Shown here piece by piece: positions 2,808 through 35,670 of a stretch of 35,760 nucleotides of DNA. Source of the stretch: an uncultured Verrucomicrobiota bacterium (lineage in GTDB: Bacteria; Verrucomicrobiota; Kiritimatiellia; RFP12; UBA3636). The notes beneath the pieces were generated by a model that saw only the letters and a list, made by a program, of their open reading frames with translations, had not been told where the DNA came from and made no database searches. Position numbers and translations under genes: made by a program. How positions within the stretch are numbered: position 1 is the first letter of the stretch; each line of letters starts with the position of its first letter. The stretch lies in assembly GCA_949285835.1 (NCBI GenBank), contig CASEAR010000052.1, positions 1 to 35,760 of the forward strand, given 5' to 3'.

Positions 2808-2902
2808 TTTCACCACCTGACTTCCCCTGCAACTTTAACCAGACCGAATCAAAACCATATACACCGCAGAGTACCGGCAAATACAGCCAAACATCTGCGC
2901 TT

Positions 2903-12092: not shown

Positions 12093-14369
12093 ATGTGCCT
12101 TTTGGAAAACCCTCTTTCAGCAAACGGAGAGTCCCGCCATGCCCATTTCATCGGAATCGGTGGCGTCGGCATGGCGGGTTTGGCATGGCTTCTTAAGCAA
12201 TCCGGATGGACTGTTTCAGGCTGTGATTTGACGTTTTCGCCATACTCAAAGCACCTTGAACGGTGCGGCATCAGCGTTGAATACACCCATTCCGCCAAAC
12301 ACATACGAACGCTTAATCCGGAAAGAGACGTTATTATAAAGACGGCTGCGGTTCCGGACACAATGCCAGAAATTGCCGAGGCTGTGAAACTCGGGCTTCG
12401 TGTTGTACGGCGAGGCGAAGCACTGGCCAGAGTATCCGGCCGATTTCGGACTATCGCTGTATGCGGCGCTCATGGCAAAACCACCACAGCTTGTCTAATC
12501 GCATCGGTCATGCGCGACTTGTTCCCGGACCGTACTGCCTGGTGTATCGGCGGAGCGACGCGCAAACTTGGGTTCGTTGCAGGCGGAATTCTCGCAAACA
12601 ACGGTTTTTTAGTTGTTGAAGCAGATGAAAGCGATGGTTCTTTAGCCTGTTATGCGCCATTCATCACTGTAATAACGAATATCGACTCAGATCACGTTGA
12701 CTTCTTTAAAACGTCCGATGCTCTGGACGGCGTGTTCAGGGAAATCGTTTCAAAAACATCAAGCGCTGTTATTTTCAACTTAACGGATAAACGATCATCT
12801 GATGTCGTCAAATCAACCCTCTTTATGAATGGCTGCCGTAAAGCGCCAGTTTCCCCTGTCCCAATCCCAAAACAAACCAGATTACATGCGGAAGATGTAA
12901 TCTTCGATAATCTGAAAATAAACTTCAAAGTCGTTTCTTCTGATTCAAATGCAGCGTATTTGTCCGTAAATACACCAGGAATGCATAATGTTGCAAATTG
13001 TCTTCTGGCTATGACGGCCTGTATGGAGGCTGGTGAATCTGTCAAACTGGATGAATGTGCGCGAGCGCTTCAGGAATCGGCGCAAATGCCGCGCCGGCGA
13101 TTCGAGCAAATACCCGTACCGCTGAACCGCTTCACACTCATCTGCGATTACGCACACCATCCACGCGAAATCAAAGCCTTTGTTTCTGTTGTCGCGCAGC
13201 AGTTGATCGGCAGAAAGATTGCTGTATTTCAGCCTCACCGGTATTCTCGTACAAAAGCGTTTCTTAAAGATTTTGCCGAGTCGTTTCCCGGTGTAGACAC
13301 TATCGTCATTGTTCCTGTATTTCCCGCATCGGAGCAACCAGCCGCAGGCGGGATGTCGTCAGACCTGTATTCGCAATTCAGGGACTTAAGGCCCGAAAAA
13401 TCCCCGCATACGGTTTTGCTTCAGTCTTTGAACGACGCCGTGCGTTTTCTTGAGTTCGAACTGCGTCCGGGCGATACTGTCATGCTTATCGGCGCCGGGG
13501 ATATTGTGGATATTGCCGGAGATGTATCACGCATCGTACCCGACGCCGCGCCTCCCTATGTTCAGACAAGACTGGGGGCATACGGAACACTGGCGCACGT
13601 CCGGCGTATTACTTCTGATCTGGACGAATTCCTTTCCTCCCCTCTCCCGCGTGCCGTCATTGGCGGGGGAACAAATACAATAATTTCACCAACAGGATTT
13701 TCAGGAACCATATTCCGTCCGGGAGCCGCTTATTCATATCTGAAGAAGGGAAGCGATCCGTGCAAATTAACGGTCGGGTGCGCTATGCCTGGGGCTTCTT
13801 TGCTGTCATACTGCCTGGAAAACAACCTTTCCGGGCTTGAGTTCATGGCAGGTATCCCGGGATGTTGCGGAGGATGGCTCGCAATGAATGCCGGAACTCG
13901 CTACGGATCCTTTTGCGACGTCGTGGACTGTGTTCACGCCGTCGACATGTACTCAGGAGAACGACTGGTGCTTTCCCGCAGCGGCCTGAACGCCGCTTAC
14001 AGATCTTGCCCGGGAATAAAAGGTCGGATCGCTCTTGAAATTGACATCACACTGCATTATGCAAGCCGCTCAGAAATTGAATCTAAAATCGAAGAAGCAA
14101 AAAAAAGACGTTTCAATTTTTCCGGACTCCGTACCGCTGGAAGTGTATTCAAAAATCCGCCGGAGGCTCCCGCCGGGAAACTGCTGGAAGAAGCCGGCTG
14201 CAAAAACATGCATGTCGGAGGCGCATGGGTTTGCCCCGAACACGCAAACGTCATCTGCACAGATTCATCTGCCGAAGCCTCCGACGTGATTGCGCTCGTT
14301 GAAAAAATGAAGGCAGCAGTCTCTTCACGCTTTGGTATTGAGCTGCAGCTCGAACTCAACGTACTCTAA
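12093..14369 (+). CDS. murC: MurC-MurB fusion: UDP-MurNAc--L-alanine ligase / UDP-MurNAc dehydrogenase
   Basis: This 758-residue protein carries two consecutive peptidoglycan-precursor enzymes. Residues 17 to about 475 form MurC: the UDP-binding HFIGIGGVGMAGL, the ATP loop GAHGKTTT (K129), VVEADESDGS, NIDSDHVD, DYAHHP and HRYSRTKAF. Residues about 485-758 form MurB: the FAD-binding VIGGGTNTIIS, GLEFMAGIPGCCGG, MNAGTRYG, and GSVFKNP with the expected proton-donor Ser (S684). MurB reduces UDP-GlcNAc-enolpyruvate to UDP-MurNAc and MurC adds L-Ala, so the two halves catalyse consecutive steps in reverse order of the polypeptide. The start ATG has no clear Shine-Dalgarno sequence. It closes the plus-strand cluster and converges with the MATE gene 12 nt downstream. 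Confidence 0.93.
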   Translation: MCLLENPLSANGESRHAHFIGIGGVGMAGLAWLLKQSGWTVSGCDLTFSPYSKHLERCGISVEYTHSAKHIRTLNPERDVIIKTAAVPDTMPEIAEAVKLGLRVVRRGEALARVSGRFRTIAVCGAHGKTTTACLIASVMRDLFPDRTAWCIGGATRKLGFVAGGILANNGFLVVEADESDGSLACYAPFITVITNIDSDHVDFFKTSDALDGVFREIVSKTSSAVIFNLTDKRSSDVVKSTLFMNGCRKAPVSPVPIPKQTRLHAEDVIFDNLKINFKVVSSDSNAAYLSVNTPGMHNVANCLLAMTACMEAGESVKLDECARALQESAQMPRRRFEQIPVPLNRFTLICDYAHHPREIKAFVSVVAQQLIGRKIAVFQPHRYSRTKAFLKDFAESFPGVDTIVIVPVFPASEQPAAGGMSSDLYSQFRDLRPEKSPHTVLLQSLNDAVRFLEFELRPGDTVMLIGAGDIVDIAGDVSRIVPDAAPPYVQTRLGAYGTLAHVRRITSDLDEFLSSPLPRAVIGGGTNTIISPTGFSGTIFRPGAAYSYLKKGSDPCKLTVGCAMPGASLLSYCLENNLSGLEFMAGIPGCCGGWLAMNAGTRYGSFCDVVDCVHAVDMYSGERLVLSRSGLNAAYRSCPGIKGRIALEIDITLHYASRSEIESKIEEAKKRRFNFSGLRTAGSVFKNPPEAPAGKLLEEAGCKNMHVGGAWVCPEHANVICTDSSAEASDVIALVEKMKAAVSSRFGIELQLELNVL

Positions 14370-18525: not shown

Positions 18526-20703
18526 TTACCGCATTTCGTTCACGGGGGCACCGCGCATCCGGTACTCGTACATACCCTCACCCACGAGACGCGAAGCGTT
18601 TATGAGTTCCCCGTACGGCCGGTCCGTACCATCCACAAAACCTATCTGGTAGGCCTCTCCGTCGCCGCGTCCGATCAAAGGCTGATCGCGGTACTGAAAC
18701 CAGTGACACCCGACAATGAGCGGATGACAGAGCGCGCCCTGCACAAACCTTGTGTACGACCGGGCGCGTTCGCTCTGGCTCGTGACAGGACACAACCCCG
18801 CCTTGAACATCCCGCGGTCAAACGTCCCGAAGTGGAATTCACCCACCAATATGGGTTTCTTTGGACCTGAGTCCATGATTTTCGAAGATAAATTGTAGAT
18901 ACTGTTGGCATACGCATTCACGGTGACGACGTCACAATACTTTGCAGCCGCACGCCATAAATGCCCCGGCTGACGAAAGCCCACCAGCCTCGAGCCAAGA
19001 TACAGCTTCCCGGGAGCGAATCCCGAAATGGCGCGTTTGACTTCGCGGAAATAGCATTCCCACCATTCGGTCTCAAACGACACCGCGTCCTCCCTCCAGC
19101 CATTCCCGGATGGACGCTCCGTCATATTTTTCACACCTTCCCAATCCGCAAAATCAGTACCCCAGGACTCGTTCAGCTTCGATACCGTCATGTACTTCTT
19201 TCTGGCACGTTCGATAAACGCACGCTTGGCGGCACACTCATCGTAGGACGCCTTCAGAGCCTTACCTAATGCATTTTTGAAGTCCATCTCATTGTCAAAG
19301 AAAAAACCAATGCACAGCGGATCATTCATGGCGCGTTTTGCCGCGGCGTCATTCATGAACCGATCCCTCATATGCGCAGTAAGCTTTTCGGAGAAGTTCC
19401 TGTCGAAACAATCGTAAAACTTCAGCCCGGGAACGTGCGGGATAGACCGTTCATTTTCGCCCAGAGTCACGACATACGGTTTGCGGGCCGCCGCAATCAA
19501 TTCACGCCCGGACCAATTCCCGATCGTATTTATCCCCCAGGCGTCAAGTCGGTCCTGAACAAAAGAATAGTATTCCTCCAGATAATCGTCCCGGCCGAAT
19601 TTCTTCTTAAGATTCCAATCCGGGAAGGACATCATCCCGGACTCAGGAACCGGCGTCTTGTACCAATCCGGGTGCTTTGTTCCGTCGGACGAATCCGTAT
19701 TGTTGCGTATCACGTCTATGCCGGTCGAGAAAAACAGATGTCCATCCGGGGTCACGAGCCACCATTTGCCGTTAAAAAACTCTGTCCGGAAATTGCCTGC
19801 AGCCCTCAGCTGCGGACCGTCCTTCCATCCGCCATACCTGTCCCAGGTTTCCGGCGGCGGCAGCATCGCTGACTTCTCCTTCGTAAGGTCGCGCGGAAGC
19901 TCTTCGGCTGACTTTACCTTTTCAGGCCAGTCAGAATGAACAAATTGACCGAATTCGTCTATGAACGGACAAAAACTCTCCGGCCTTATCATCCTCTCCG
20001 CCTGAGGTGCGCCTTCAAGCCTGAGATTGGAAATCCGGCAATCCGCCACCCACTTGAACTCATCTTCATACGGCCACTGCACCTGAAGATCTATGGAATT
20101 CACATGATGCGTGTCTATAAGATACGGCTGCGGGACGCCATCCGGGGATGCGTAAATCTCACGATGCGGCAGGAGTATGCGCATTGTTCCCTTTTCTCCG
20201 GGATTCAACCCTATGCCCGTGTTAACCGCACGGTTTTTTGTAAAGTTTGCCAGAGCGTGATCCGCAGATTCAGAATTTGCGCCTCCGCTGGAAATATGCA
20301 TTGTAAGGCGCATCTGCCTGCTGTCGGACAGGTTCTCCACATCGAGCGCCAGAAACCGGCCTCGCGACAAGTCAAAAAACCTGCGCCCCTGCGGCGGTTC
20401 AATACGTACGCCGCAACTCCACTCCGCACTCGGAAGCCGCAGTCTGTACGAATCGTCCGTCTCTTTTGTCAGTTCCGCCCCATACACCGGGACAAGGCTC
20501 CCGGAAGAAAAACCGAAATCGTGACGGCTTTCTTCATACGGAGCACCTTCCCCCTCATCAGGATCAGGCGCGTCCGGAACAGCGAGAACCGCAGGCGCTT
20601 CCGCTGCGCCCGGCTCCGCCTCCAACCGTACGTTCCTCTGAACGTACTCATACGAAAAAAGCCCTGCGGCGCACAAAACAACGGCAAAAAAAAGTATCTT
20701 CAT
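18526..20703 (-). CDS. Exported GH50-like (beta-agarase family) glycoside hydrolase, complete active site
   Basis: This 725-residue protein begins with an N-terminal signal or membrane anchor (about residues 1-20). A beta-sandwich, CBM-like domain follows (about 60-240). A clan GH-A barrel begins around 245 with FIDEFGQFVHSDWPEKV. The acid/base Glu is in FFFDNEMDF (E472) and the nucleophile Glu in ILVGEFHFG (E622), 150 residues apart. The C-terminal CHWFQYRDQPLIGR and EAYQIGFVDGTDRPYGEL segments are typical of GH50 agarases. GH50 enzymes act on beta-1,4 galactoside bonds of agar, but the true substrate here may be another galactan, so I assign the family rather than agarase activity. GGAG lies 7 nt before the ATG. 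It follows its paralogue after 60 nt on the same strand, probably as one transcript. Confidence 0.82.
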   Translation of the reverse strand: MKILFFAVVLCAAGLFSYEYVQRNVRLEAEPGAAEAPAVLAVPDAPDPDEGEGAPYEESRHDFGFSSGSLVPVYGAELTKETDDSYRLRLPSAEWSCGVRIEPPQGRRFFDLSRGRFLALDVENLSDSRQMRLTMHISSGGANSESADHALANFTKNRAVNTGIGLNPGEKGTMRILLPHREIYASPDGVPQPYLIDTHHVNSIDLQVQWPYEDEFKWVADCRISNLRLEGAPQAERMIRPESFCPFIDEFGQFVHSDWPEKVKSAEELPRDLTKEKSAMLPPPETWDRYGGWKDGPQLRAAGNFRTEFFNGKWWLVTPDGHLFFSTGIDVIRNNTDSSDGTKHPDWYKTPVPESGMMSFPDWNLKKKFGRDDYLEEYYSFVQDRLDAWGINTIGNWSGRELIAAARKPYVVTLGENERSIPHVPGLKFYDCFDRNFSEKLTAHMRDRFMNDAAAKRAMNDPLCIGFFFDNEMDFKNALGKALKASYDECAAKRAFIERARKKYMTVSKLNESWGTDFADWEGVKNMTERPSGNGWREDAVSFETEWWECYFREVKRAISGFAPGKLYLGSRLVGFRQPGHLWRAAAKYCDVVTVNAYANSIYNLSSKIMDSGPKKPILVGEFHFGTFDRGMFKAGLCPVTSQSERARSYTRFVQGALCHPLIVGCHWFQYRDQPLIGRGDGEAYQIGFVDGTDRPYGELINASRLVGEGMYEYRMRGAPVNEMR

Positions 20704-20763: not shown

Positions 20764-22251
20764 TTACTTTTTACGCTTTTTTACCGAATCGTACAGCCGC
20801 TCTCCGATTTTTCTGGACGCCGCTGTCATTTCCTCATAAGTGCGGTCGCAAACATCCACAAAACCAATCTGAAACGCCTCTCCGTCTTCTCTGCCTACAA
20901 GGGGCTGGTCACGGTATTGGAAATAATGACATCCGACAATGTACGGATTTTTCAAAGCCCCATGGACAAAACGCTTCAGGGATTCGGCCCTCTCCTCCTG
21001 ACTGGAAACCGGACACGGCCCAGCTCCGAACATCCCGCGGTCGAGGCTCCCGAAACTGAAGGCTCCAATCAGAATTGGACGGTCTGAAACACCGGGCGAA
21101 ACCGCGGGCCGGAACCACGTAACGTCCCGCACGTGAACATCCGCAAGAATCACGTCGGCATATTCACAAGCCGCATCCCAAACAAAGCCGGGCTGCTCTG
21201 CCCCGGCAAAAGCTGCGCTGAAATACAGTTTGTCCGGAGCAAGCGCCTTCACCGCCTTTCTCGCAGTTTCAAAATATTTCCGCGCCCAAATCCCGGCAAA
21301 CGATTCAGCATCCGCCGCAAATCCAGCGCCAGGAACCGGCGCGGACACGGAACCCAGAGCCTGCCACGTGGGAATGTGTGTGCCCCAGGATGAATTTAGT
21401 GCCGCCAAATCCCCGTATTTTGCCGCAACGTAACTGAAAAATTCATTTTTCGCGGGAGAAGTCCGCCAATCCTGCGCAAGCATCGCCGAAATCATACTCT
21501 CAAAAGCGATTTCATTGTCCACGGAATATCCGATGCACCACGGATCGCTTATGCCATTCAATATCGCCTCAACGCGTTTCTGTTCCGAAACGCCCGCTAT
21601 GAAGCGGCTCTCAAACTCGGGATGAAACACGTCGTAAATGTGAGTTCCCGGGATCTTCGGAGTCTTGGACGGGGAATCCAGCAGGAGAAGATACGCCTTC
21701 CGCTCCATCAGAGGCAGTCTCCACGCGCCCCATCGCCCGATGGAATTCATGCCCCAGTCGTCCATGCGCTTCAAAATGAAATCGTAGTAATCCGAAAGGT
21801 AGTCGATCTTCCCGAACTTACGCTGAAGGTTCCAGTGTGTAAAACACATCCACCCGTTTCTGGAGGGAGGAACTTCATACCATTCCGGATGCTTATGCCC
21901 GTTGGCCGCGTCCGTATAGTGCCGCAGCACGTCGCATCCATAGGAAAAGAAAAGGCGCCCGTCCGGATCAACAATCCACCAGCGCCCGTCCGTTTTCTCC
22001 ACCCGGAATGACCCGGTCGGCTCCAGCTGCGGACCATCCGCCATGCCGCCGAAACGGTCCCAGGAAGGCGGCGCCGGCCTAATTGTCTTCAGTTCCCGGC
22101 GCAAATCTTCGGCGAATTCGGACTCGTCGAGAACCTTTTCCGGCCAGACTGTGTGAGCGAATTGCCCGAACCGGTCAACAAATGGCATCCGGAATTCGGA
22201 AAACTCGGCTATAGCGACCGGCGTCGGATACTTTGTACTCATACTGTTCAT
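20764..22251 (-). CDS. Cytosolic GH50-like paralogue with nucleophile Glu replaced by Ala
   Basis: This 495-residue paralogue of the downstream GH50-like enzyme lacks both the signal peptide and the N-terminal beta-sandwich. It begins near the barrel with FVDRFGQFAHTVWPEKV. The acid/base Glu is kept in YSVDNEIAF (E247). At the nucleophile position, where the paralogue has VGEFHFG, this protein has IGAFSFG, with Ala at 397 (codon GCC, 21061-21063). The spacing to E247 is again 150 residues. The rest of the fold motifs (CHYFQYRDQPLVGR, EAFQIGFVD) are intact. It is therefore probably not a normal retaining hydrolase; it may be a binding or regulatory pseudoenzyme or use another mechanism. I chose the ATG at 22251; ATG 22242 is possible, and a longer TTG-started frame is unlikely. 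Confidence 0.75.
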   Translation of the reverse strand: MNSMSTKYPTPVAIAEFSEFRMPFVDRFGQFAHTVWPEKVLDESEFAEDLRRELKTIRPAPPSWDRFGGMADGPQLEPTGSFRVEKTDGRWWIVDPDGRLFFSYGCDVLRHYTDAANGHKHPEWYEVPPSRNGWMCFTHWNLQRKFGKIDYLSDYYDFILKRMDDWGMNSIGRWGAWRLPLMERKAYLLLLDSPSKTPKIPGTHIYDVFHPEFESRFIAGVSEQKRVEAILNGISDPWCIGYSVDNEIAFESMISAMLAQDWRTSPAKNEFFSYVAAKYGDLAALNSSWGTHIPTWQALGSVSAPVPGAGFAADAESFAGIWARKYFETARKAVKALAPDKLYFSAAFAGAEQPGFVWDAACEYADVILADVHVRDVTWFRPAVSPGVSDRPILIGAFSFGSLDRGMFGAGPCPVSSQEERAESLKRFVHGALKNPYIVGCHYFQYRDQPLVGREDGEAFQIGFVDVCDRTYEEMTAASRKIGERLYDSVKKRKK

Positions 22252-22411: not shown

Positions 22412-25400
22412 TCAACGGAAGACAAGTACCGTTGGCTTCGGCGGAATCCAGCGATACGCCGCGTTCTGGAGGAAAACCACAGATGCATGCTCCGTACCGT
22501 TGGCGGCGCCGGCGAACCCGACATATATCGTATTGCCCCAGCCTGCGGCTGAAAATGCGTCCTGTTCCACGCCGTTGAAATACGTTCTGATAACACTGCC
22601 CTCCCTGCGTATCATAACGCGCAGCGTCTCTCCGGTGTAGCCGTTAATTCGCTTGCTTGTTGCAAGACTGCCTCCGGATTTGGAACGAACCTGTGAAATC
22701 ACCGAATTGTTTTGAGTGCGGAATACCGTCACAGCACGATCACCGGAATTGGTGGTCGGTCTCACCATCAGCCCCTGACGGAGGTTGGACTGCCAGCCAG
22801 TCGGACGCCCCAGATCTGCCTCAAGTTCAAAGTCCCCGGTAGCTGGACGGAACAAATAATGTCCGTCATCCCCAGAGCCGAATCCGGAATTGCTGCTGGA
22901 ACTTACCAAGACAATATTCATAGAATCGCCCGTGCGAACACTGCTCCCATACGAACCGTTTATTATGGAATTCCCTTTGCGCTGTTCGCCGAACTGCATG
23001 TCCGTCCATTCTCCAAACGATGCATCGGTTCCCGCCTGCACCGTGACAGGGCCGTCCGAAGAAAGCGTCGTCGAAAGAGCAGTAACAGGTATCCGCGAAA
23101 AACTCGCGTCCATGTCGGATCCATTGCACCACGTCAGATCAAACCTGCCGTCGTCCTGATAATAACCTTTGTGGAACAATATCGACAGAGGAACTTTACG
23201 GCCGGCGTCCAGCCATATCCACGAAGAAAGATTCGTCGTGGAGTTTGACGGATTGGAAGATATTTCCTGAAAAAGATTGTGCCCATCAACCGACAGCATG
23301 GTATAATCGCGTTTATCACCGATGCTGCGGAAACGGTACCACGCGGAATATGGCGCAGTGACAAACCCCGAAAGCACCACGTAAAATCCATCAGTCCTGT
23401 ACGAACTGCCGTTCGCCAGTTTCCAGGTTCCGTCTTCCACACAGCTCCATGGGTCAAGCCCCCTGATCTCCGTATGATCTGGAATTTCCGTGGTGGGACC
23501 GGCAACATAACTCGTATAATACGCGGCAAATACGCCTTCGCCATTCTCACTTGGAGCCTTACGGGCCGCACCCGTCACATGGCTCCCGGACAACGACTCC
23601 GGGAAAGACTCATCTCCGAAAATAGTCGACTTCGGCTTCACGACAAAGTATTCGAGCGCACGGTAATCGTCTGTCCCATATGTGTAATTCACCGTCTCAT
23701 CAACAAGAACGTCGTCATCCAGCGAAACGGCGTTTTGCAGCGCGTATTCAAGACCGTTCGTAACCGTCGCCGTGGACGAAATTTCAAAGGAGCGGAATAT
23801 ATCCTGATACGCATCCGTCCAGAGATATCCGTACTCGATACGTTCCGATTCAGCCGCACGATCTCTGGCCGGAGACGCGACCCCGTCAACGGAAACCAGC
23901 GCGTCACGCCCGTTGCTGAGCGGATGTGCCTCAACAGAGAACGAAGCATTCGTCCCGAACTCAACCAGGGAAACTTCGGAAAAGACAGCCTGCCCCAGTC
24001 CAGTACGATTCCCCAGAGCAGACACCAGGCCGACCACCGCTTCGCCTGAAAGCGCCGCCGGAAGCTCTGCTGCCCCGACATAAACCCATGCATCATCAAA
24101 TTCGGACGCCGCCTCCGTCTGGATATACGCATTCAGGAGTGCACCCCTGCGGGAGAGTCGCACGCGTGCAGACGTCGAAATCCCGGTCACAGTATTCGAT
24201 ACCGAGCTTTCACTCCCGGCCGCAGAACGAATCACAAACGACGCGTTTCCTGAAGCATCGAGAACAACGCTTGCCTGCTCACAGTCCCCGGAATATGCAC
24301 TGCCGCGCAGCACAAGCCCGGCGCACCCGGTCCCTATGTCCAATTTTGCAAAGAAATCGAAGTCTCCCGCAGAAACAGGCTGCGAGATAAGCTGCCCTTC
24401 ATCGTATGCCCCTGTCCAGCCGTTTCCGCCGCCGAACATTGCGAAGGAACCATTCGCAAGACTATAAAGCGAGTTCCCGTTGTATGGAGACGAACCCACT
24501 TCAGCATATGTCCACGGATACGGAACAGGCTCATTGGAAACCTTATCCCCGGAAGCACCCAGATAAAATTCCTCGCTGCTTCCCACAAGCCCGTAGTTTA
24601 TCTGGCAGCCCTCGCCCCCAGAGAACTCCTTGTATGTCAAACTCACAGGATAGTTCCGTCCTGCTTCCAGATAGAATGGTGCGGAGAAAATGGACTTGCC
24701 GACGTAGTCCGGCTGATCGACAACAACTTCGCCGTCAATCGAAATGGCGACAGCATCGTCAGCGTTTACTCTGAAAATGTAAAAGCCGGACTGGGCGACA
24801 CGCAAAACGCAGCTTCCCTCGAGCTGGAAGTTATCGAGAGAAGTAAGGCCGGTTCTCGCATTCGACGGATACGTACGGTCTCCCTTCCCACCCTGATCAA
24901 TCGGATTTTTCCATGCGTAATTTGAATAAAAGGAACTGAAGTACGAATAAGAACCGCGAACCTCGCCGTCTTGAACCGTGCGGCAGAGAACTCCGCGGGC
25001 ATACGTTTCGCCATCCGCAGGGTTGCTGTTGGTTTTGTCGACGGAGATTCTGGATCTGAACGACTCTCCGACCTCATACTCCGTGTACTCCGTCCCGGCG
25101 TCTCCAGCCTCCGCTGCAGCCTTTGCCGTAACACGGTACTTGTAAAAAACCCCGGCTGCCGGAGTTTCGTCGACGTATGACAGATGCGACGAAGAAACGG
25201 AAGAAATATTTTCCCACACGCTCTCTCCGTACGCCTTGCGGTAAACGTTGAAGCCTGAGAGCTCCGCGCCGTCCGGAATCGCCGTTTCATCGGTCCATGA
25301 CACCTCTATGGAATTATCTCCGGCAACGGCTTCCACACTCTGCCTCAGAACAACGTTGTAGAAATCCAGATTAACGCTCGCTGACGAATTATTCGGAGTA

Positions 25401-26020
25401 AGGGCAAGCCCGCAGTTCAGCGAGGAAGGAAAGAGGCCTTCCCGGGCCGTATACGAACCAAGCAGATTCCAGACGGTAAAGTTCTCATTTGTGCTCCAGT
25501 ACCCGAAGAATTCATTTCCCCTGCGCACCAGGCGTAAACGCACATTTTCAGCATCGTCGGCAGAAAGATTCAGCAGCACTGATGACGAAACAGAACCGTT
25601 GACGGAAGAACGATAGGAAAGCCGGACGTTGTACGTACGATTTGCCAGCGTTGTTTCCCTGTAGAGGAACACAAACGGAGCACCGGCATAGGTTGATCTT
25701 CTGAACATAACACCCGCCTTCACCCAGTCGCCGACATTCGCATTGTCTCCGACCCTCTCAATCGACGGCACAGTAACGGACATCTCGCAGTCGCCGGCTT
25801 CCGGCGCGTAATAAAAAGCCCCCTTGTCGGTACTATCCCATATGTCCTCCCCGGTGGTAACTATATTGACATTCAGCGTCCCCGTACCAGTAGACGGAGT
25901 AAAAACCGGTGATTCGGAGGATCCGTTATACATAAAGGCCGTACCAGTCCACTGGTCGGCTGCAGCAGCGGAAGAAACCGCCAGCGCGCAGACAATGCCT
26001 GCTATACAAGTTCTATTCAT
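22412..26020 (-). CDS. Large secreted multidomain protein (beta-sandwiches, FN3, two PA14 domains)
   Basis: This 1202-residue protein has a signal peptide (MNRTCIAGIVCALAVSSAAAA, cut before DQW). Domains read in order: a concanavalin-like/DUF1349-like sandwich (about 25-225); an FN3 module (about 230-307, EVSWTDETAIPDGAELSG, NVYRKAYGES); a PA14 domain (about 370-500, YIFRVNADDAVAISIDGE); a second sandwich (about 557-690); a second PA14 (about 840-975, WYRFRSIGDKRDYTMLSVDG); and a third sandwich (about 1010-1195). No catalytic hydrolase domain is evident, so it probably binds glycans at the cell surface or outside. The C-terminus (PKPTVLVFR) has no PEP-CTERM or LPXTG-like anchor. The start at 26020 follows AAAGG at 8 nt; the frame is open further upstream without a better start. 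Confidence 0.8.
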   Translation of the reverse strand: MNRTCIAGIVCALAVSSAAAADQWTGTAFMYNGSSESPVFTPSTGTGTLNVNIVTTGEDIWDSTDKGAFYYAPEAGDCEMSVTVPSIERVGDNANVGDWVKAGVMFRRSTYAGAPFVFLYRETTLANRTYNVRLSYRSSVNGSVSSSVLLNLSADDAENVRLRLVRRGNEFFGYWSTNENFTVWNLLGSYTAREGLFPSSLNCGLALTPNNSSASVNLDFYNVVLRQSVEAVAGDNSIEVSWTDETAIPDGAELSGFNVYRKAYGESVWENISSVSSSHLSYVDETPAAGVFYKYRVTAKAAAEAGDAGTEYTEYEVGESFRSRISVDKTNSNPADGETYARGVLCRTVQDGEVRGSYSYFSSFYSNYAWKNPIDQGGKGDRTYPSNARTGLTSLDNFQLEGSCVLRVAQSGFYIFRVNADDAVAISIDGEVVVDQPDYVGKSIFSAPFYLEAGRNYPVSLTYKEFSGGEGCQINYGLVGSSEEFYLGASGDKVSNEPVPYPWTYAEVGSSPYNGNSLYSLANGSFAMFGGGNGWTGAYDEGQLISQPVSAGDFDFFAKLDIGTGCAGLVLRGSAYSGDCEQASVVLDASGNASFVIRSAAGSESSVSNTVTGISTSARVRLSRRGALLNAYIQTEAASEFDDAWVYVGAAELPAALSGEAVVGLVSALGNRTGLGQAVFSEVSLVEFGTNASFSVEAHPLSNGRDALVSVDGVASPARDRAAESERIEYGYLWTDAYQDIFRSFEISSTATVTNGLEYALQNAVSLDDDVLVDETVNYTYGTDDYRALEYFVVKPKSTIFGDESFPESLSGSHVTGAARKAPSENGEGVFAAYYTSYVAGPTTEIPDHTEIRGLDPWSCVEDGTWKLANGSSYRTDGFYVVLSGFVTAPYSAWYRFRSIGDKRDYTMLSVDGHNLFQEISSNPSNSTTNLSSWIWLDAGRKVPLSILFHKGYYQDDGRFDLTWCNGSDMDASFSRIPVTALSTTLSSDGPVTVQAGTDASFGEWTDMQFGEQRKGNSIINGSYGSSVRTGDSMNIVLVSSSSNSGFGSGDDGHYLFRPATGDFELEADLGRPTGWQSNLRQGLMVRPTTNSGDRAVTVFRTQNNSVISQVRSKSGGSLATSKRINGYTGETLRVMIRREGSVIRTYFNGVEQDAFSAAGWGNTIYVGFAGAANGTEHASVVFLQNAAYRWIPPKPTVLVFR

Positions 26021-26148: not shown

Positions 26149-26783
26149 GAAAAAATGAATTATTCCGAAATCTCATCTCCGAACAGCGTAATCCGAACAG
26201 AAATTCACGAGATGAACACAAGCAAAAGATCCTTACGGCTGTAACGGCGCAGACGGCTCTGCATTTTTTGAACAGGCGTTCGCCTTAGGCCCGACGTTTG
26301 TTTATTCAAATTGGAGCCGGACAACGCGCTCCGGTTCCCGAAACTTGAAACATGCCATGACGCAAAACACCGAGTCTTCTCCAGGCAGCAGCATTCGCGA
26401 AACAAGTTCCCTCTATGCGGCAACCGTACGTATGTGACATGGCGCGCCGCCCGCACGCTTTCTACATGCCATGCAGCAGGCACACTGCGTACGAGTAACG
26501 ACAGATCAGCCCGGCGCACCACGCTGTCTGAAAAAAAACGGCGTCAGCACACCTTCCGCCGTTAGGCCAGATATTTCAATGCGGCGTGATGTATGCCGCA
26601 CTCTCCGCTTATACGCTTTCCCTTATCTTTCTTTTGTTTGTTTTTACCTGACGGCAATGGTAATGTGCCCCCTTTTTGGTTCCGCCCTCAAACAGGAAAA
26701 ATTGAACAGACCAAATCCTTCTTTTTGCCATTCGCCGGGTGTTCAATTACATCCTATTGATGGCGGCGCAACCTTATTTTATG
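26149..26783. other. Divergent intergenic region, no gene seen
   Basis: The region between the divergent PA14 and GH20 promoters is 635 nt long. Plus-strand frames are open for long stretches (one runs in frame into the GH20 gene from 26471), but no family motif or Shine-Dalgarno sequence supports translation. It may contain shared regulator sites for the two units; none could be defined. Confidence 0.45.
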
Positions 26784-26812
26784 TTGACCTGCATGCAGAC
26801 CGCTTGTTAAAC
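26784..26812 (+). promoter_or_regulatory. Candidate promoter for the GH20-like gene
   Basis: TTGACC (26784-26789) and TTAAAC (26807-26812) are 17 nt apart, again close to the pattern before pgi and the PA14 gene. The leader would be about 117 nt. Confidence 0.4.
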
Positions 26813-26935
26813 TCTGAGATACTGCGCTGGAGCGCATTGTCAGCGGCGGAAGGGATCTGCCATGGTCGATGCGGCGAAAATGAGAAGCGGTGCCGCACCG
26901 TATGTTTTGCGGCTGCAGCTGTGAAGGGAAAAACC

Positions 26936-28405
26936 ATGAATGACAGATTTAAAAAAAATTTGATCGGAAGAATATGCCCGCGGCCGTCTGAAGCGGATTT
27001 CGGCGGCTCCGTTTACCGTTTCCGCGGCACTGCCGCGCTCTCCATATCCACAGAGAAGGAAATCCCCGCAAAGGAACGTAACAGCATCGCCGAAAAAATC
27101 AAAAAAATGTGGCCCCCGGTCATCCCCGATATAACGTTTGAGACGGCCTGCCGGTCCGTGCCGATGCAGCCGGAAAGCTACACCCTTGAGATCTCTCCTT
27201 CTGGCGTCAGCATCACCGCGCCGGATTTCGCATCCGCGACATACGCTTTGCACACCTTACGGCAAATTTGCGAACCTGCAAGAAATTCCGCGACAATTAC
27301 GGAACGTCTTATCCCTTGCGGCGTGATAAAGGACAGACCCGCCATTCCTTTCCGGGCAATCCACTTCTGTGTCTTCCCGGAAACGAACATGGCGAGGCTG
27401 GAATCGCTCGTAAGGCTCGCCGCATTTCATAAATTCAACTGTGTCGTAATCGAACCGTGGGGAACGTTCCCGTTCAGAACGCACCGGGAATTTGCCTGGC
27501 ATGATGCAAAAAAAACAGAAGCTGAATTTCATTCCATTATCCGAATCGCACACGATGCCGGATTAACCGTGGTGCCGCAACTGAACATTTTCGGACATGC
27601 ATCAATGGCCCGACACATATCGCACAAACACGCGGTACTTGATGAACATCCGGAGCTCGCCCCGCTCTACGAGCCAACCGGGTGGTCGTACTGCCTCTCA
27701 AATCCCGCTGTTTCGGAAATACTCGCAGATCTGGTAAATGAAATGGCGGATTTCTTTGAAAATCCACCGTTCTTCCACATAGGGTGCGACGAAGCATATG
27801 ACTCGCACACCTGCATGACCTGCTCTCTGCGTTCCCCGGAAGATCTTGTTGCCGGTCACATTATCCGCTTTCACGACATACTAGCCGGACGCGGGATACG
27901 CACAATGATGTGGCACGATATGCTTATTGACGCACACGACAAACGCTGGACGGGATGCGTTGCATCCGGCTCCGCAGATACCGCCGGAATTTTGAAGCGG
28001 CTGCCTGAGGACATAATCATAATGGACTGGCAGTACTGGCCGATGCCGCCTGATTCAGACACTGCGGACCGGCCCACGTCGTTGTTCTTCAAAGAAAAAG
28101 GATTCGACACCGTAGTTTGTCCCTGGGAAGACACATCAGTGATGGAAAATCTGGCGCAGACCGCTATCAATCACGGATTGTACGGGTTTATGGAAACGAC
28201 ATGGCATACATGTTCCGGGATAAACGTCGAATACATGCTGCGCTGCGCGGCGTCTGCCGCGTGGACAGGCAGGGCCCGCCATGAAAACGACCTCTCCGTA
28301 GCTCTTTCCGCAAACCTTCGTGCAATGCGTCAGGACGCGGGGCACAGTGCTTACACTGACACCGGAACCGCCGACTTCCAGATCCCGCCGCACACGGTGT
28401 CCTGA
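26936..28405 (+). CDS. GH20-like beta-N-acetylhexosaminidase
   Basis: This 489-residue protein has a small alpha/beta GH20b-type N-terminal domain (about 30-125, ending in ATYALHTLRQI) followed by a barrel. The barrel starts with RAIHFCVFPETNMARL and shows the substrate-assisted catalytic pair in FFHIGCDEAYD (D285, E286). Later barrel segments include TMMWHDML and MDWQYWPMP. GH20 enzymes remove terminal beta-linked GlcNAc or GalNAc. No signal peptide is seen at this start, so it should act in the cytoplasm. AAGGG lies 7 nt before the ATG at 26936. The frame is open back to 26471, but that extension has no recognisable domain. It is divergent from the PA14/GH50-like unit. The exact substrate is uncertain. 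Confidence 0.82.
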   Translation: MNDRFKKNLIGRICPRPSEADFGGSVYRFRGTAALSISTEKEIPAKERNSIAEKIKKMWPPVIPDITFETACRSVPMQPESYTLEISPSGVSITAPDFASATYALHTLRQICEPARNSATITERLIPCGVIKDRPAIPFRAIHFCVFPETNMARLESLVRLAAFHKFNCVVIEPWGTFPFRTHREFAWHDAKKTEAEFHSIIRIAHDAGLTVVPQLNIFGHASMARHISHKHAVLDEHPELAPLYEPTGWSYCLSNPAVSEILADLVNEMADFFENPPFFHIGCDEAYDSHTCMTCSLRSPEDLVAGHIIRFHDILAGRGIRTMMWHDMLIDAHDKRWTGCVASGSADTAGILKRLPEDIIIMDWQYWPMPPDSDTADRPTSLFFKEKGFDTVVCPWEDTSVMENLAQTAINHGLYGFMETTWHTCSGINVEYMLRCAASAAWTGRARHENDLSVALSANLRAMRQDAGHSAYTDTGTADFQIPPHTVS

Positions 28406-29272: not shown

Positions 29273-29902
29273 TCAGTCTTTTACACGGCACCCCATCACG
29301 CAGTGACGGCAGTCTATACGGAGCGGTTCCGGTTCCGGCTTGCCCGAACGCTTTGCCAGAAATCTGCCCAAACGGTTCATCCCGGCAAGGAGGCATCCCA
29401 ACACGATAAAGCCGCCTGGAGGCATTGTGGCCATGGGAGCAAATATGCCTATTGACTCCCGCACCAGTGATACGATGAAAAGCGCGAAAGTAAACCCGAG
29501 CCCCATGCCGATCCCGTCACACACGCTGTCCGCTACCGTATTCTTTGAGGCAAAAGCTTCTGCGCGCCCTAAAATAATGCAATTGACGACGATAAGAGGA
29601 ATAAAAATACCCAGTGTTTTGTATAAATCGGGCAGAAACGCCTGCATAAGCATCTGCAGTACCGTGACAAATGCAGCAATTACCACGATATAGCACGGTA
29701 TCCTGACCTGCGAAGGAACAAATTTACGTATCATCGAAATAACGGCGTTGGAACCGACGAGAACCGCAGCCGCCGCCAGACCCATACCGACGCCGCTCGA
29801 AACGGTACTCGTCGTAGCAAGCGTGGGACACATGCCCAAAACAAGTACAAACGTTGGATTTTCCCTGATAATGCCGTTGATTATAATTTTCAGCTTGCGC
29901 AT
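29273..29902 (-). CDS. rnfE: Rnf complex subunit E
   Basis: This 209-residue inner-membrane subunit of the ferredoxin:NAD+ oxidoreductase (Rnf/Rsx) complex has six membrane helices. The family motifs NPTFVLVLGMCPTLA near residue 15 and FIPLIVVNCIILGRAEAFA near 115 are present. RnfA and RnfE are inverted homologues that together hold an iron centre in the membrane through conserved Cys, seen here in GMCPTLA and VNCIILGRAE. The start ATG overlaps the rnfG stop by one base (TAATG) and follows GGAGGGG. The C-terminal tail is Cys-rich (DCRHCVMGC). It is the last gene of the operon. Confidence 0.93.
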   Translation of the reverse strand: MRKLKIIINGIIRENPTFVLVLGMCPTLATTSTVSSGVGMGLAAAAVLVGSNAVISMIRKFVPSQVRIPCYIVVIAAFVTVLQMLMQAFLPDLYKTLGIFIPLIVVNCIILGRAEAFASKNTVADSVCDGIGMGLGFTFALFIVSLVRESIGIFAPMATMPPGGFIVLGCLLAGMNRLGRFLAKRSGKPEPEPLRIDCRHCVMGCRVKD

Positions 29903-30432
29903 TATTTCCCCTCCAGAATATCGGAATATACAGCACATCCCTCCGCAATCGCACCGCAAACCGCCCGTGAGGAAATCGTCGCAGAAGAAATCGGCACAAT
30001 TTCCCCTCCGTCCTTGGTTACTCTCCAATCCGTGGACGCCGCCGGACGGTTTGTAACGTGCGCGACAAACGTGTCCGTTATGTGCGATCCCAGAGTTGGC
30101 GTCTCGGAATGAGACAGGACGCTGTATTTATTGAATCTGCCGTCTTTTGTAAACCCAAGCATCAGGTCTATGCGTCCGGCATAGCCTGAATTGGAAGAAA
30201 TCTCCATGGCATACCCCTTGTCGGACTCCCAGTAAATTCTGCCCGCAAGGTTCGTCTTCGTCACGGGATCCCCGGATCCTTCCGGCATGACATCAAGAAT
30301 CGACGCGCGTTTCTTCGCCTCGTTTGCTATGCGTATAGGTTCCTTGGTAACCATGTACGCCGTCGACACGACGGCTCCGCAAATCACGCACACCGCAGTA
30401 AGCGTCAGCACAAGTTTCGAAAAATCTTTCAT
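29902..30432 (-). CDS. rnfG: Rnf complex subunit G (flavin carrier)
   Basis: This 176-residue protein has one N-terminal membrane helix (about 8-30) and a periplasmic FMN-binding domain. In this family FMN is joined covalently to a Thr in a D-x-x-(S/T)-G-A-T motif by ApbE. Here the corresponding stretch is VPISSATISSRAV. The Thr and following residues match, but the Asp is Val and the Gly is Ser. Other conserved features such as YSVLSHSETPTLGSHI are normal. The protein passes electrons between RnfD and the membrane iron centre. It starts 1 nt after the rnfD stop and overlaps rnfE. Confidence 0.92.
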   Translation of the reverse strand: MKDFSKLVLTLTAVCVICGAVVSTAYMVTKEPIRIANEAKKRASILDVMPEGSGDPVTKTNLAGRIYWESDKGYAMEISSNSGYAGRIDLMLGFTKDGRFNKYSVLSHSETPTLGSHITDTFVAHVTNRPAASTDWRVTKDGGEIVPISSATISSRAVCGAIAEGCAVYSDILEGK

Positions 30433-30433
30433 A

Positions 30434-31519
30434 TCAAACAGCCTTTCCGCGCTTTGGCTCTCCGAAACGATGTACCCTGACCATTTTGTTTATCAGCGGA
30501 GTAAACGCGTTCATTATAAGAATGGCAAAAGAAACACCCTCCGGATACGCGCCGCCGGGAACACACCGAATAATCATCGTCAGAATACCGCACCCTATCG
30601 CAAAAATAACCTGCCCCTGGCGCGTGACGGGATTTGTCACCATGTCCGTAGCCATAAAGCACGCCCCGAGCATGAGCCCTCCGGAAAGGATGTGAAAGTC
30701 CACCGGCATCGCCATATCAGGAACCGCCAGACGCAGACAGAGAGCAAAAACAGCCACGGTACCTATATAAAAAACCGGAATGTGCCATGTAATAACGCGC
30801 CGGTAGAGGAGCCAGAGCGCACCGATAAGGACAGCCAGCACCGAAGTCTCCCCCATACTGCCGTTCCGGTCACCGATAAAGAGCTTCCATCTCATCTGCG
30901 AATCATAAACAAAATCCGGTTTTTCTCCCCGTTTTGCCGCTGTTTTTACCTCGCCGAGAGGTGTGGCCGTCGTCATAACAACGTCGTACCCCGGTTGGGG
31001 AACCTCAGCCGGCGCAGAAATCCCTGCCTCGGGGACCCGCTCAACACGCTTCCAGTCGCTCTCAGTCCACGATGTCATCGTCGCCCCAAATGAAATGAGC
31101 AGGAAAGCGCGCCCGACAAGCGCCGGATTGAACGGATTGAAGCCAAGTCCGCCAAAAATCTGCTTCGCTACGGCAATTGAAACCACTCCCCCCAGAGCCG
31201 CCTGCCAGAAAGGAAGCCCGGAAGGAAGATTAAGCGCCAGCAGAACCCCGGTTACAGCCGCGCTTAGATCCCCAATCGTGTTGTTCCTGTTCATCATCTT
31301 GCGGCATACGTACTCCGTAATCACGGTCGCAGCAGTACAAACGGCAATAAGCGCCAGAGCCCTCAGCCCGAAAAAAACGACCGCAGCAATACACGGCGGA
31401 ATAAGACCCGTCAGCACATCGCGCATGGTGCCGCGGACGCTCGTCCCGCAATGAATATGCGGAGAAGAACTGGTTACAAGCATTGACGGTTCGTTTACCG
31501 CACCCTTTTCGTCGCTCAT
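30434..31519 (-). CDS. rnfD: Rnf complex subunit D
   Basis: This 361-residue integral membrane subunit has about ten helices and is homologous to NqrB. It carries covalent FMN on a periplasmic Thr, probably the Thr in MTTATPLGEV (about residue 184). It is thought to form the ion path of the complex. Conserved segments include GDLSAAVTGVLLALNLP and GGLGFNPFNPALVGRAFL. Two ATG codons overlap the rnfC stop (ATGATGA): 31522 with a very short Shine-Dalgarno spacing, and 31519 with about 6 nt. I chose 31519. The gene is followed by rnfG after 1 nt. Confidence 0.93.
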   Translation of the reverse strand: MSDEKGAVNEPSMLVTSSSPHIHCGTSVRGTMRDVLTGLIPPCIAAVVFFGLRALALIAVCTAATVITEYVCRKMMNRNNTIGDLSAAVTGVLLALNLPSGLPFWQAALGGVVSIAVAKQIFGGLGFNPFNPALVGRAFLLISFGATMTSWTESDWKRVERVPEAGISAPAEVPQPGYDVVMTTATPLGEVKTAAKRGEKPDFVYDSQMRWKLFIGDRNGSMGETSVLAVLIGALWLLYRRVITWHIPVFYIGTVAVFALCLRLAVPDMAMPVDFHILSGGLMLGACFMATDMVTNPVTRQGQVIFAIGCGILTMIIRCVPGGAYPEGVSFAILIMNAFTPLINKMVRVHRFGEPKRGKAV

Positions 31520-32901
31520 CATTTGCTCCCGTGTGTCTGTTCCGTTTTCTTTCTGGAATCTTCTTCAGCCTTTTTTTGCATTCTTCTCAAAGTGAGCACC
31601 CCCTTGGCACGCCTGAAATGCTGCACGAGAGGCCTGTGCGCGGGACATGAGAAGCTGCAGGAGCCGCATTCGAAACAATCCGCGACATGGAGCGCAGCCG
31701 CCCCGTCTATGTCGTCCGCTTCTATCGCGCACGCCATTTCTGAAGGAAGCAGCCGCATAGGACAGACCGAATTGCAGCGCCCGCAGCCTATGCACGGAGA
31801 AGACGAATACTCGAACGTATGCCTTTCGTCCAGGCACAGTATGCCGGACGTGGTCTTCGTCACATAAATGTCCGGTGAAGAAACCGCAAATCCCATCATC
31901 GGGCCGCCGGCCACGATCTTTACAGGAGACACGGAAAACCCTCCTGCGGCTTCTATCAGGTACCGGAACGACATGCCACAACGCGCAATGAAATTGCCCG
32001 GCCGCGCCACCGCTTCGCCCGTCACCGAAACATAACGGCTGTCGAGAGGCTTCCCGTCAAGCACCGCGTCGCAGACCGCGCTCATCGTACCGACGTTCTC
32101 CACTACGCACCCGACATCGGCCGGGAGCCCCCCGGAAGGCACCTCAAACCCCATCGTGGCAAAAATCTGCTGTTTCTCACTGCCGTGAGGATAACGTGCC
32201 TTGAGCACCACCACTTCCACGCCTTCATCGGAGTCAATACGGGAAAAAAGCTCTATCGCATCCGGCTTGTTCGCCTCTATCGCAATGCAAACCTTTTCTG
32301 CCCCGAGAATCTTCCGGAGGATGCGGATGCCTGTCCACACGCGCTCAGTCTTCTCCAGCATCAGTCTGTGATCCGCTGTAAGATACGGCTCGCATTCCGC
32401 GCCGTTGACGACAAGCGTATGTATTTTTTTCCCGGGTGGAGGATTCACCTTGACTCCGGTCGGGAATCCTGCGCCACCCATACCCACGATCCCGGCGGCT
32501 GATATCCTCTCTATGAGCTCAGCCGGCGTACGGCTTTCCCAGTCGGCAAACGGAGCAAGCTCGTTTGAACGTTCATCCTGTCCGTCCGGCTCTATAACGC
32601 AGTGCTGAACGACTCTTCCCGCCGGAGAAGGAAGACTTTCAAACGCCTTCACTGTGCCGGATGTCGGAGAATGCACATTGGCAGATATCACCCCCGCCGC
32701 CGAACCGATAACATCCCCGCGCCTGACATGGTCTCCGACTGAAACAACCGCTTTTGCAGGAGCGCCAAGATGCTGCGACAAAGGTACCTTCAGCAAATCC
32801 GGAAGCGGAAGCTCAACTGCCGCGGAACCGGACGAAAGCTCTTTCTTTTCAGGCGGATGAACCCCGCCCCTGAACGTGTACGGAGCGTCAACTACTCTCA
32901 T
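31519..32901 (-). CDS. rnfC: Rnf complex subunit C (NADH-binding)
   Basis: This 460-residue cytoplasmic-face subunit has an N-terminal barrel-sandwich domain. It is followed by a Rossmann-like NADH/FMN domain with GIVGMGGAGFPTGVK and VNGAECEPYLTADHRLM. Two [4Fe-4S] clusters follow, with CIGCGRCNSVCP near residue 370 and CFECGSCSFSCP near 410. It exchanges electrons with NAD(H). There is no long C-terminal repeat region of the kind seen in E. coli RsxC. The start overlaps the rnfB stop by one base (TAATG), and the stop overlaps rnfD. Confidence 0.95.
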   Translation of the reverse strand: MRVVDAPYTFRGGVHPPEKKELSSGSAAVELPLPDLLKVPLSQHLGAPAKAVVSVGDHVRRGDVIGSAAGVISANVHSPTSGTVKAFESLPSPAGRVVQHCVIEPDGQDERSNELAPFADWESRTPAELIERISAAGIVGMGGAGFPTGVKVNPPPGKKIHTLVVNGAECEPYLTADHRLMLEKTERVWTGIRILRKILGAEKVCIAIEANKPDAIELFSRIDSDEGVEVVVLKARYPHGSEKQQIFATMGFEVPSGGLPADVGCVVENVGTMSAVCDAVLDGKPLDSRYVSVTGEAVARPGNFIARCGMSFRYLIEAAGGFSVSPVKIVAGGPMMGFAVSSPDIYVTKTTSGILCLDERHTFEYSSSPCIGCGRCNSVCPMRLLPSEMACAIEADDIDGAAALHVADCFECGSCSFSCPAHRPLVQHFRRAKGVLTLRRMQKKAEEDSRKKTEQTHGSK

Positions 32902-33719
32902 TATGCCCTCTCCCCTCGATCACTCAAGTCCAAATTTACAAGACACTTAGACGGACATTTGCCGGCAACGGCTTCCGGATTGGCAACCGGCGCCTTGTCG
33001 TACTCTATGCGCGCTATCGCTCCGGACATGGTCATGGACACGCCACCTTCGGCCTTCACGCACAAGCCGCATCCTATGCAGCCTTTCGAACAAACCTTGC
33101 GCACCGCCGCTCCCTTCTCCGGAGATGAGCACAGAACATGTATCCGGTGCGATCTGGGTACCAGCCTTATAAGCCCGCGCGGACATACAGAAACGCATTG
33201 ACCGCACCCGATGCAAAGCGCAGGATCCACCGACGCTATGCCGCCTTCCAGTCTTATCGCATTTTTTGGACATGCCCTGGCGCATGTGCCAAGCCCCAGA
33301 CAGCCGTAAATACACGCCTTCGGACCTCCCGATACGATGTTCGCCGCGCCGCAGTCCGTAATTCCGTTGTAAACGCTCTTCTGCTTCGCGGCGTTATTAT
33401 CACCGCCGCACATCACAACCGCCGCCTTCGGTTCGGACGCCGATCCCGACCTCCCGGTCAGCTTCGACAGCTTATCCACCACTGCCGCGCCCCCCGCCGA
33501 ACACCTGTCCACCGGCGCATCGCCGGTTATTACGGCTTTCGCATAAGACGCACAACCCGCAAAGCCGCATCCTCCGCAGTTCGCCCCCGGCAAAACCGCG
33601 ATTGCCTCTTCAACGCGCGGATCCTCCTTCACCGAAAACCGCCCCGCTATATACGCAAGCAGGACACCGCATACCAACCCTATAAGACCGATAACTACCG
33701 CAGTACCTAAAATACTCAT
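32901..33719 (-). CDS. rnfB: Rnf complex subunit B (ferredoxin-type)
   Basis: This 272-residue protein has an N-terminal membrane helix (about 5-27). An Fe-S domain follows with ligands C48, C51, C56 and C73 (NCGGCGFAGCASYA). The C-terminal half is rich in ferredoxin-type motifs: CLGLGTCARACP, CIGCGQCVSVCP and CSKGCIGCGLC, plus a further CPSKC. It is the entry point for electrons from reduced ferredoxin. It is longer and has more clusters than the roughly 190-residue gammaproteobacterial RsxB, resembling RnfB of anaerobes. It begins 21 nt after rnfA and overlaps rnfC. Confidence 0.95.
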   Translation of the reverse strand: MSILGTAVVIGLIGLVCGVLLAYIAGRFSVKEDPRVEEAIAVLPGANCGGCGFAGCASYAKAVITGDAPVDRCSAGGAAVVDKLSKLTGRSGSASEPKAAVVMCGGDNNAAKQKSVYNGITDCGAANIVSGGPKACIYGCLGLGTCARACPKNAIRLEGGIASVDPALCIGCGQCVSVCPRGLIRLVPRSHRIHVLCSSPEKGAAVRKVCSKGCIGCGLCVKAEGGVSMTMSGAIARIEYDKAPVANPEAVAGKCPSKCLVNLDLSDRGERA

Positions 33720-33740
33720 GAAACACAGCCTCTGATATTA

Positions 33741-34313
33741 TCAAACCAGTCCTGAAAAGCCCATGAAAGCCAACGACAGAAGGCCTGCCGTAACAAGAGC
33801 TATCGCCACTCCCTCAAACGCCTTGGGCGGCTGAGCCCTGTCCAGCCGCTCACGCAATCCCGCAAAAAGCAGCAAAGCCAGCGAAAACCCAAGAGCCCCC
33901 GAAAAACCAAACAGGACCGACTTCACAAATCCGTAGCCTTCCTGCGTGTTCAGCACCGCGACGCCGAGCACCGCGCAGTTTGTCGTTATCAGCGGCAGAT
34001 ATATTCCCAACGCAGCATGAAGCGGCGGCACAAAACGCTTCATCAGGATGTCCAAAAGCTGGACAAAGGCGGCTATCACCAGAATAAAAGCGATCGTCTG
34101 CATGTACTCCAGCCCCGCCGGTACAAGGATAAACCGCTGCACGGACCACGTGACCGCCGATGCCGCCGTCATCACAAATATAACAGCCCCCGACATCCCC
34201 ATGGCCGTCTTGATTTTTTTGGAAACACCCAAAAACGGGCATATCCCCAGAAATCTGGACAAAACGAAATTGTTTACAAACACAGCACCGATTACAAGAA
34301 GGACATATTCCAT
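33741..34313 (-). CDS. rnfA: Rnf complex subunit A
   Basis: This 190-residue membrane subunit has six helices and the family motifs VNNFVLSRFLGICPFLG (residues 13-29) and YLPLITTNCAVLGVA (about 97-111). Each contains one of the Cys residues that help hold the membrane iron centre with RnfE. It opens the operon A-B-C-D-G-E, the same order as in E. coli rsx. AAGGA lies about 9 nt before the ATG. The gene begins 47 nt after the stop of the PAS protein gene, and a possible promoter lies in that gap. Confidence 0.95.
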   Translation of the reverse strand: MEYVLLVIGAVFVNNFVLSRFLGICPFLGVSKKIKTAMGMSGAVIFVMTAASAVTWSVQRFILVPAGLEYMQTIAFILVIAAFVQLLDILMKRFVPPLHAALGIYLPLITTNCAVLGVAVLNTQEGYGFVKSVLFGFSGALGFSLALLLFAGLRERLDRAQPPKAFEGVAIALVTAGLLSLAFMGFSGLV

Positions 34314-34335: not shown

Positions 34336-34366
34336 ATTATACGAAAATTCCCATATCCGTTTACAA
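34336..34366 (-). promoter_or_regulatory. Candidate promoter of the rnf operon
   Basis: A perfect TATAAT (34341-34336, minus strand) precedes rnfA. The best -35 is TTGTAA (34366-34361) at a long 19-nt spacing and overlaps the stop of the PAS gene. Transcription would start about 15 nt before the rnfA ATG. This could drive rnf separately from the PAS gene. Confidence 0.4.
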
Positions 34367-35503: not shown

Positions 35504-35670
35504 CTCGTCCCGCCGCAGGTACACGCACATCATCGCCCTGACGCGGCCGAATAAATTAGACGGGGCATTATACCGTTTGTCGCTCTCATTATCAAGAAAC
35601 AATATCCAAACGAGCGCGCATTGAAAAGTGCAAAATTAAATGACGCACATTCCAAGAGAAGGGAAAAGCG

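Follow-up and report, generated by a model that had tools for sequence, protein, structure and literature searches.

A GH50-like barrel of 495 residues encoded in the window (the whole stretch of 35,760 nucleotides analysed here) lacks the catalytic nucleophile of its family, and the same position is without glutamate in the nine orthologues found in related gut Kiritimatiellae. As in a pseudoenzyme, a catalytic residue has been lost in a protein that is conserved and under selection, and the loss is accompanied by replacement of other residues of the sugar pocket. Judging from the sequences, we lean towards a neofunctionalised cytosolic pseudo-GH50, which would bind an oligosaccharide without cleaving it in the manner of GH50 enzymes.

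The gene pair and its catalytic positions

The stop codon of the nucleophile-less gene is separated by 60 bp from the start of an intact paralogue (Table 1). The two proteins align across the barrel with 43–44% identity, and the spacing between E472 and E622 in the 725-residue neighbour is 150 residues, as it is between E247 and A397, in agreement with the preliminary description of this DNA. The A397 codon, read at 21063-21061, is indeed GCC, with two base changes separating it from a Glu codon, and the reported absence of a signal peptide also holds, with none in the upstream in-frame stretch and low N-terminal hydropathy. The neighbour had been called exported; it has a hydrophobic helix at residues 2–24, for which a membrane anchor is as likely as a cleavable signal. 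The predicted model of this intact paralogue is poor ahead of the barrel (residues 1–238 below 50).

Table 1. Coordinates of the gene pair, its catalytic codons and other features of the window.
Feature	Position	Strand	Remarks
GH50-like barrel without nucleophile	20764..22251	-	495 aa, open ORF, without signal peptide
A397 codon GCC	21061..21063	-	Nucleophile position (E695 of Aga50D)
E247 codon GAA	21511..21513	-	Acid/base position (E534 of Aga50D)
Intact GH50 paralogue	18526..20703	-	725 aa; E472 and E622; N-terminal hydrophobic helix
Large PA14-domain protein, signal-like N-terminus	22412..26020	-	Upstream of nucleophile-less gene; inferred start at MNRTCIAGIVCALAVSS
GH42 beta-galactosidase	792-2816	-	No obvious signal peptide
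MurC-MurB fusion ORF	12093-14369	+	Mur ligase domains (MurC-like), MurB C-terminal and FAD-binding domains
GH20-type protein	26471-28405	+	Adjoins the GH50 region
Rnf-type electron transport genes	29273-34313	-	RnfC, RnfD, Rnf-Nqr subunits
PAS-domain protein	34361-35602		12 kb from nucleophile-less gene

The 495-residue protein has sequence homology, the barrel fold and the acid/base Glu in common with GH50, while the strand-7 nucleophile Glu is absent (A397). The strong matches among solved structures are GH50 enzymes only (5z6p, 6xj9, 4bq2 and 4bq4), with E values of ~1e-60 by phmmer and ~1e-90 by profile, and GH50 agarases make up the first 15 Foldseek matches of the AF2 model (mean pLDDT 92.3). 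Pfam provides no model naming this barrel, giving sub-threshold GH42/GH14 matches only. Alignment with the solved GH50 structures, which the preliminary description had proposed as a check, pairs E247 with E534 and A397 with E695 of Aga50D. The corresponding 4bq2 chain positions are E491 and E652, and the constant offset of 43 to Aga50D numbering also recovers N533, F742, R752 and E757, all active-site residues of that enzyme (numbering from PMC11079163). Barrel strand 7 (393–398) of the AF2 model carries A397 at its C-terminal end, and E247 falls just past barrel strand 4 (239–244). Alignment to 4bq2, 5z6p and 6xj9 together with this strand assignment rules out another Glu as nucleophile. On the nucleophile test of the family this GH50 fold has alanine in place of glutamate, and it should be annotated as 'GH50-like, nucleophile absent', not as 'agarase'.

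Orthologues, selection and the sugar pocket

The nine orthologues are 53–63% identical to the 495-residue protein and come from two families of one order; five genomes are in genus g6 and one each in g4 and g2 (one family), and two are in g12 (the other family). Some of these genomes are on record as Kiritimatiellae/Verrucomicrobia MAGs, one of them from roe deer rumen. Across 346 genomes searched in the class, no further orthologue was found at E <= 1e-90; the other strong matches in the class are intact paralogues, and the strong matches inspected in the wider phylum are likewise of the intact type. The ten proteins form one clade with 100/100 support on a long stem, and adding five homologues that represent other families in the phylum leaves the support at 100/100. 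Recurrence of the nucleophile change in homologues had been proposed as a check, and Glu is absent from the position in all ten members (nine Ala, with Thr in G043), whereas the acid/base E247 is kept throughout.

One loss on the clade stem explains why all ten lack the Glu and form a single clade; in our preferred reading the nucleophile would have been lost once, from a duplicated GH50 barrel, in a lineage ancestral to a group of gut Kiritimatiellae. In the G004 orthologue ~180 residues precede the barrel, which matches the N-terminal domain in size, but a signal peptide is not seen. Given a single loss of the nucleophile on the stem, this loss preceded that of the N-terminal domain in the members other than G004.

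A second, independent nucleophile loss is seen in another GH50 protein, encoded in L058 (G584:C189:6719-8131), which reads LIAVFHFG where relatives have LIGEFHFG; the same gene occurs in L053. It is ~44% identical to the window protein with all other active-site residues intact and, represented by one sequence only, may reflect recent decay or an assembly error. Many GH50 paralogues in the orthologue-bearing genomes lack 60–65 residues after the acid/base Glu (residues ~258–323 in the numbering of the 495-residue protein, between strands 4 and 5) and keep both catalytic Glu, as in L045:7078-9120, L045:10782-12650, L042:10822-12639 and their relatives. The gap is present in L049:1387-2706 too. 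The G001 orthologue has the same gap, and of the catalytic Glu it keeps the acid/base only. Large expansions of GH50 are present in G008, G014 and G017, with 16–28 matched stretches per genome versus 4 in the genome of the window.

Pairwise dN/dS, for which synonymous sites are near saturation in distant pairs, is 0.10–0.22 among six clade members, the same range as for the intact paralogues encoded in these gene strings. By codon maximum likelihood, omega is 0.035 for the nucleophile-less clade, while two intact-paralogue sets have values of 0.041 and 0.043. As evidence on selection, the closest pair, G008 and G017 (dS 0.04, omega 0.10), and the fact that the methods agree are more reliable. 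Purifying selection on the clade is as strong as on the intact paralogues by this comparison, which had also been proposed beforehand. The earlier view of a selected function and not decay is upheld by the loss of Glu in all ten proteins, the low dN/dS, and a nucleophile position that structure-aware alignment leaves unmoved.

All other fold motifs had been described as intact, which is correct for the fold; in the active site, however, several of the residues that intact GH50s hold constant have been replaced. The clade differs from intact GH50s in the -1 subsite by N173R, F243S, R347A, N371D, Y373H, E397A and H399T/S/N, with L344F and G345A/S also replaced at strand ends. Among 80 other GH50 homologues from the phylum and relatives, N246, E247, R347, N371 and Y373 are each present in 80/80, and the nucleophile Glu in 79/80. 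Because R347, N371 and Y373 are invariant elsewhere and changed together in the clade, a coordinated rebuilding of the -1 subsite is indicated, not the loss of a lone residue. With the pocket set defined by DSSP strand ends and not by distances, and with p-values that are a guide only given that the sequences are related, the clade-specific replacements cluster at C-terminal barrel-strand ends, the location of the active site in barrels of this kind (Fisher p = 2e-4 versus 18 intact paralogues, 1e-5 versus 21), and variability within the clade is 0.58 bits in the pocket versus ~0.85 bits elsewhere (p = 0.01).

Residues that have become near-invariant in the clade include R173 and H111 (10/10) and H373 and R375 (9/10), with D371 gained in 8/10; the gain of Arg and His may point to an anionic ligand. 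The outer sugar-contacting residues F444, R454 and E458 are kept, E458 in every member, while the Asn preceding the acid/base (N246) is kept in eight of the ten and D245 also varies. No newly gained carboxylate is invariant across the ten members: position 371 has Asn instead of Asp in G004 and G001, and Glu or Asp at position 352 is shared by nine members, with Arg in G004.

Predicted compartment and gene neighbourhood

A hydrophobic N-terminus is absent from all ten clade members, and an upstream in-frame start with a signal peptide was sought and not found; in G008 and G017 a stop codon only 9 nt upstream of the start precludes one. The nucleophile-less protein is predicted to be cytosolic. 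Directly downstream lies an intact-type GH50 gene whose product has a hydrophobic N-terminus, with a 4-nt overlap in G014, G017 and G042 and a gap of 19–66 nt in G011, G043, G004 and G001; in G008 the paralogue is present with its start unresolved, and in G016 there is only a fragment at a contig end. A second intact GH50 gene precedes the nucleophile-less gene in G008, G011, G014, G017, G042 and G043, and a related large protein is encoded upstream of it in the window, G004 and G001, with PA14 domains in the window and G004.

A conserved gene string is present in L041-L046, consisting of a large secreted-type protein (with PKD domains in L045), a GH50, the nucleophile-less GH50 and another GH50; a gene for an FAD-dependent oxidoreductase adjoins the string in L044 and L045. 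Short simple repeats (cctgaaacctga-type and ttccctacc-type) lie in the gap immediately preceding this nucleophile-less gene of G014 and G043, just before 11126 in L041 and just before 10686 in L045, both on the - strand. We recognised neither a transporter nor a regulator next to the nucleophile-less gene, and Pfam shows neither a DNA-binding domain in the 495-residue protein nor a partner regulator among the annotated window ORFs.

Possible roles and known systems

In the pathway that we propose, the GH50 partners encoded alongside, membrane-anchored or exported, would cleave a galactan-like polymer outside the cytoplasm. The resulting oligosaccharide, once imported, would meet the nucleophile-less protein in the cytosol and be bound; this protein may buffer, present or sense the oligosaccharide without hydrolysis. 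The pocket would have kept the acid/base Glu, the preceding Asn and the outer sugar contacts, with the part serving the retaining double displacement swapped for a new conserved set, namely R173, S243, A347, D371, H373, A397 and T/S399 together with H111 and R375. Ligand binding, the absence of hydrolysis and the identity of the ligand are what we infer; import and sensing are guesses, since no transporter or regulator is recognised beside the gene, and the lack of an adjacent regulator weakens the sensor role in particular. Counting against a pure binding role, E247 is kept in all ten members while N246 and D245 vary, as if the chemistry of E247 mattered.

The main alternative, possible though doubtful, is that the protein is instead an enzyme of altered mechanism, with E247 as acid/base and no covalent enzyme nucleophile, acting on an imported and perhaps anionic oligosaccharide. 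It could be inverting with another base (D371, H373 or E458), substrate-assisted, or act by elimination. An exported first enzyme is usually partnered by a cytosolic second one, which counts in favour of such an enzyme, as do the invariance of both E247 and E458 and the new strand-end residues R173, H111, H373, R375 and D371. E247 and E458 are common to intact GH50s, and an enzyme could re-use them. A shared new catalytic base is disfavoured, however, because neither 371 nor 352 is an invariant gained carboxylate. Inversion via D371 across the whole clade is weakened by the Asn in the two earliest branches, G004 and G001. Nor are we aware of a natural clan GH-A hydrolase that functions in the absence of this residue's nucleophilic counterpart, the nucleophile Glu. 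A natural nucleophile-free GH50 barrel whose rebuilt -1 subsite, with more Arg and His, performs a new reaction on imported oligosaccharides via the old acid/base Glu seems rather unlikely.

Improbable, in our estimate, is a structural or regulatory partner in which the fold is kept for protein-protein contact (e.g. in assembly or stability) and the pocket is incidental. The gene is tightly coupled to the intact paralogue, and pseudoenzymes that have been kept frequently act on the active members of their family, for example heparanase 2 (PMC12406646), but the pocket is the better conserved part of the protein within the clade, and the hydrophobic N-terminal helix of the neighbour versus the lack of an export signal here leads us to expect different compartments. 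Judged from the N-termini, the two neighbours are unlikely to work together directly as one complex. Decay or error (an early pseudogene, or a base-calling or binning artefact) has a negligible probability, although the assembly that contains the window is of metagenome type and split into 143 contigs, being ruled out by orthologues in the same state in nine other assemblies, all with open frames, and by dN/dS far below 1.

The GH50 exo-beta-agarases Aga50D (4BQ2-4BQ5), AgWH50C (5Z6P) and PfGH50B (6XJ9) share the barrel with the 495-residue protein (TM-score <=0.86 by query length, 26–29% identity), as well as the acid/base Glu, the preceding Asn and the equivalents of F742, R752 and E757. Unlike them, it has replacements at the nucleophile and at the equivalents of R347, N371, Y373 and H399, and is without the N-terminal domain and signal peptide. 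The family is wider than agarase, including the beta-galactosidase VadG925 of Victivallis vadensis and the beta-1,3-glucanase Fsa16295Glu (PMC11079163). Fsa16295Glu resembles the 495-residue protein in having no annotated N-terminal CBM, but has both catalytic Glu (E192 and E354) and a TAT signal (PMC11079163).

Retained glycosidase pseudoenzymes are described in eukaryotes, namely heparanase 2 (PMC12406646) and beetle pectin-digesting enzymes (PMC6549527), and these are inactive-looking paralogues beside active ones, as here. They belong to other families, whereas the present protein is bacterial, predicted to be intracellular, and gene-coupled to an intact-type paralogue. Among the open-access papers searched, none was found that describes a GH50 protein naturally lacking the nucleophile. 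GH50 annotation is by homology, so nucleophile-less proteins would count as agarases or galactosidases; with ten natural orthologues of this type and their intact neighbours as controls, the fate of a glycosidase after nucleophile loss is directly testable. The engineered galactosidase nucleophile mutants 4UOZ and 4UOQ (E324A) likewise have Ala for Glu, in a barrel of distant relationship; 4UOZ is described as a ligand complex, which counts in favour of a binding role. These laboratory mutants keep the rest of the site unchanged, unlike the 495-residue protein.
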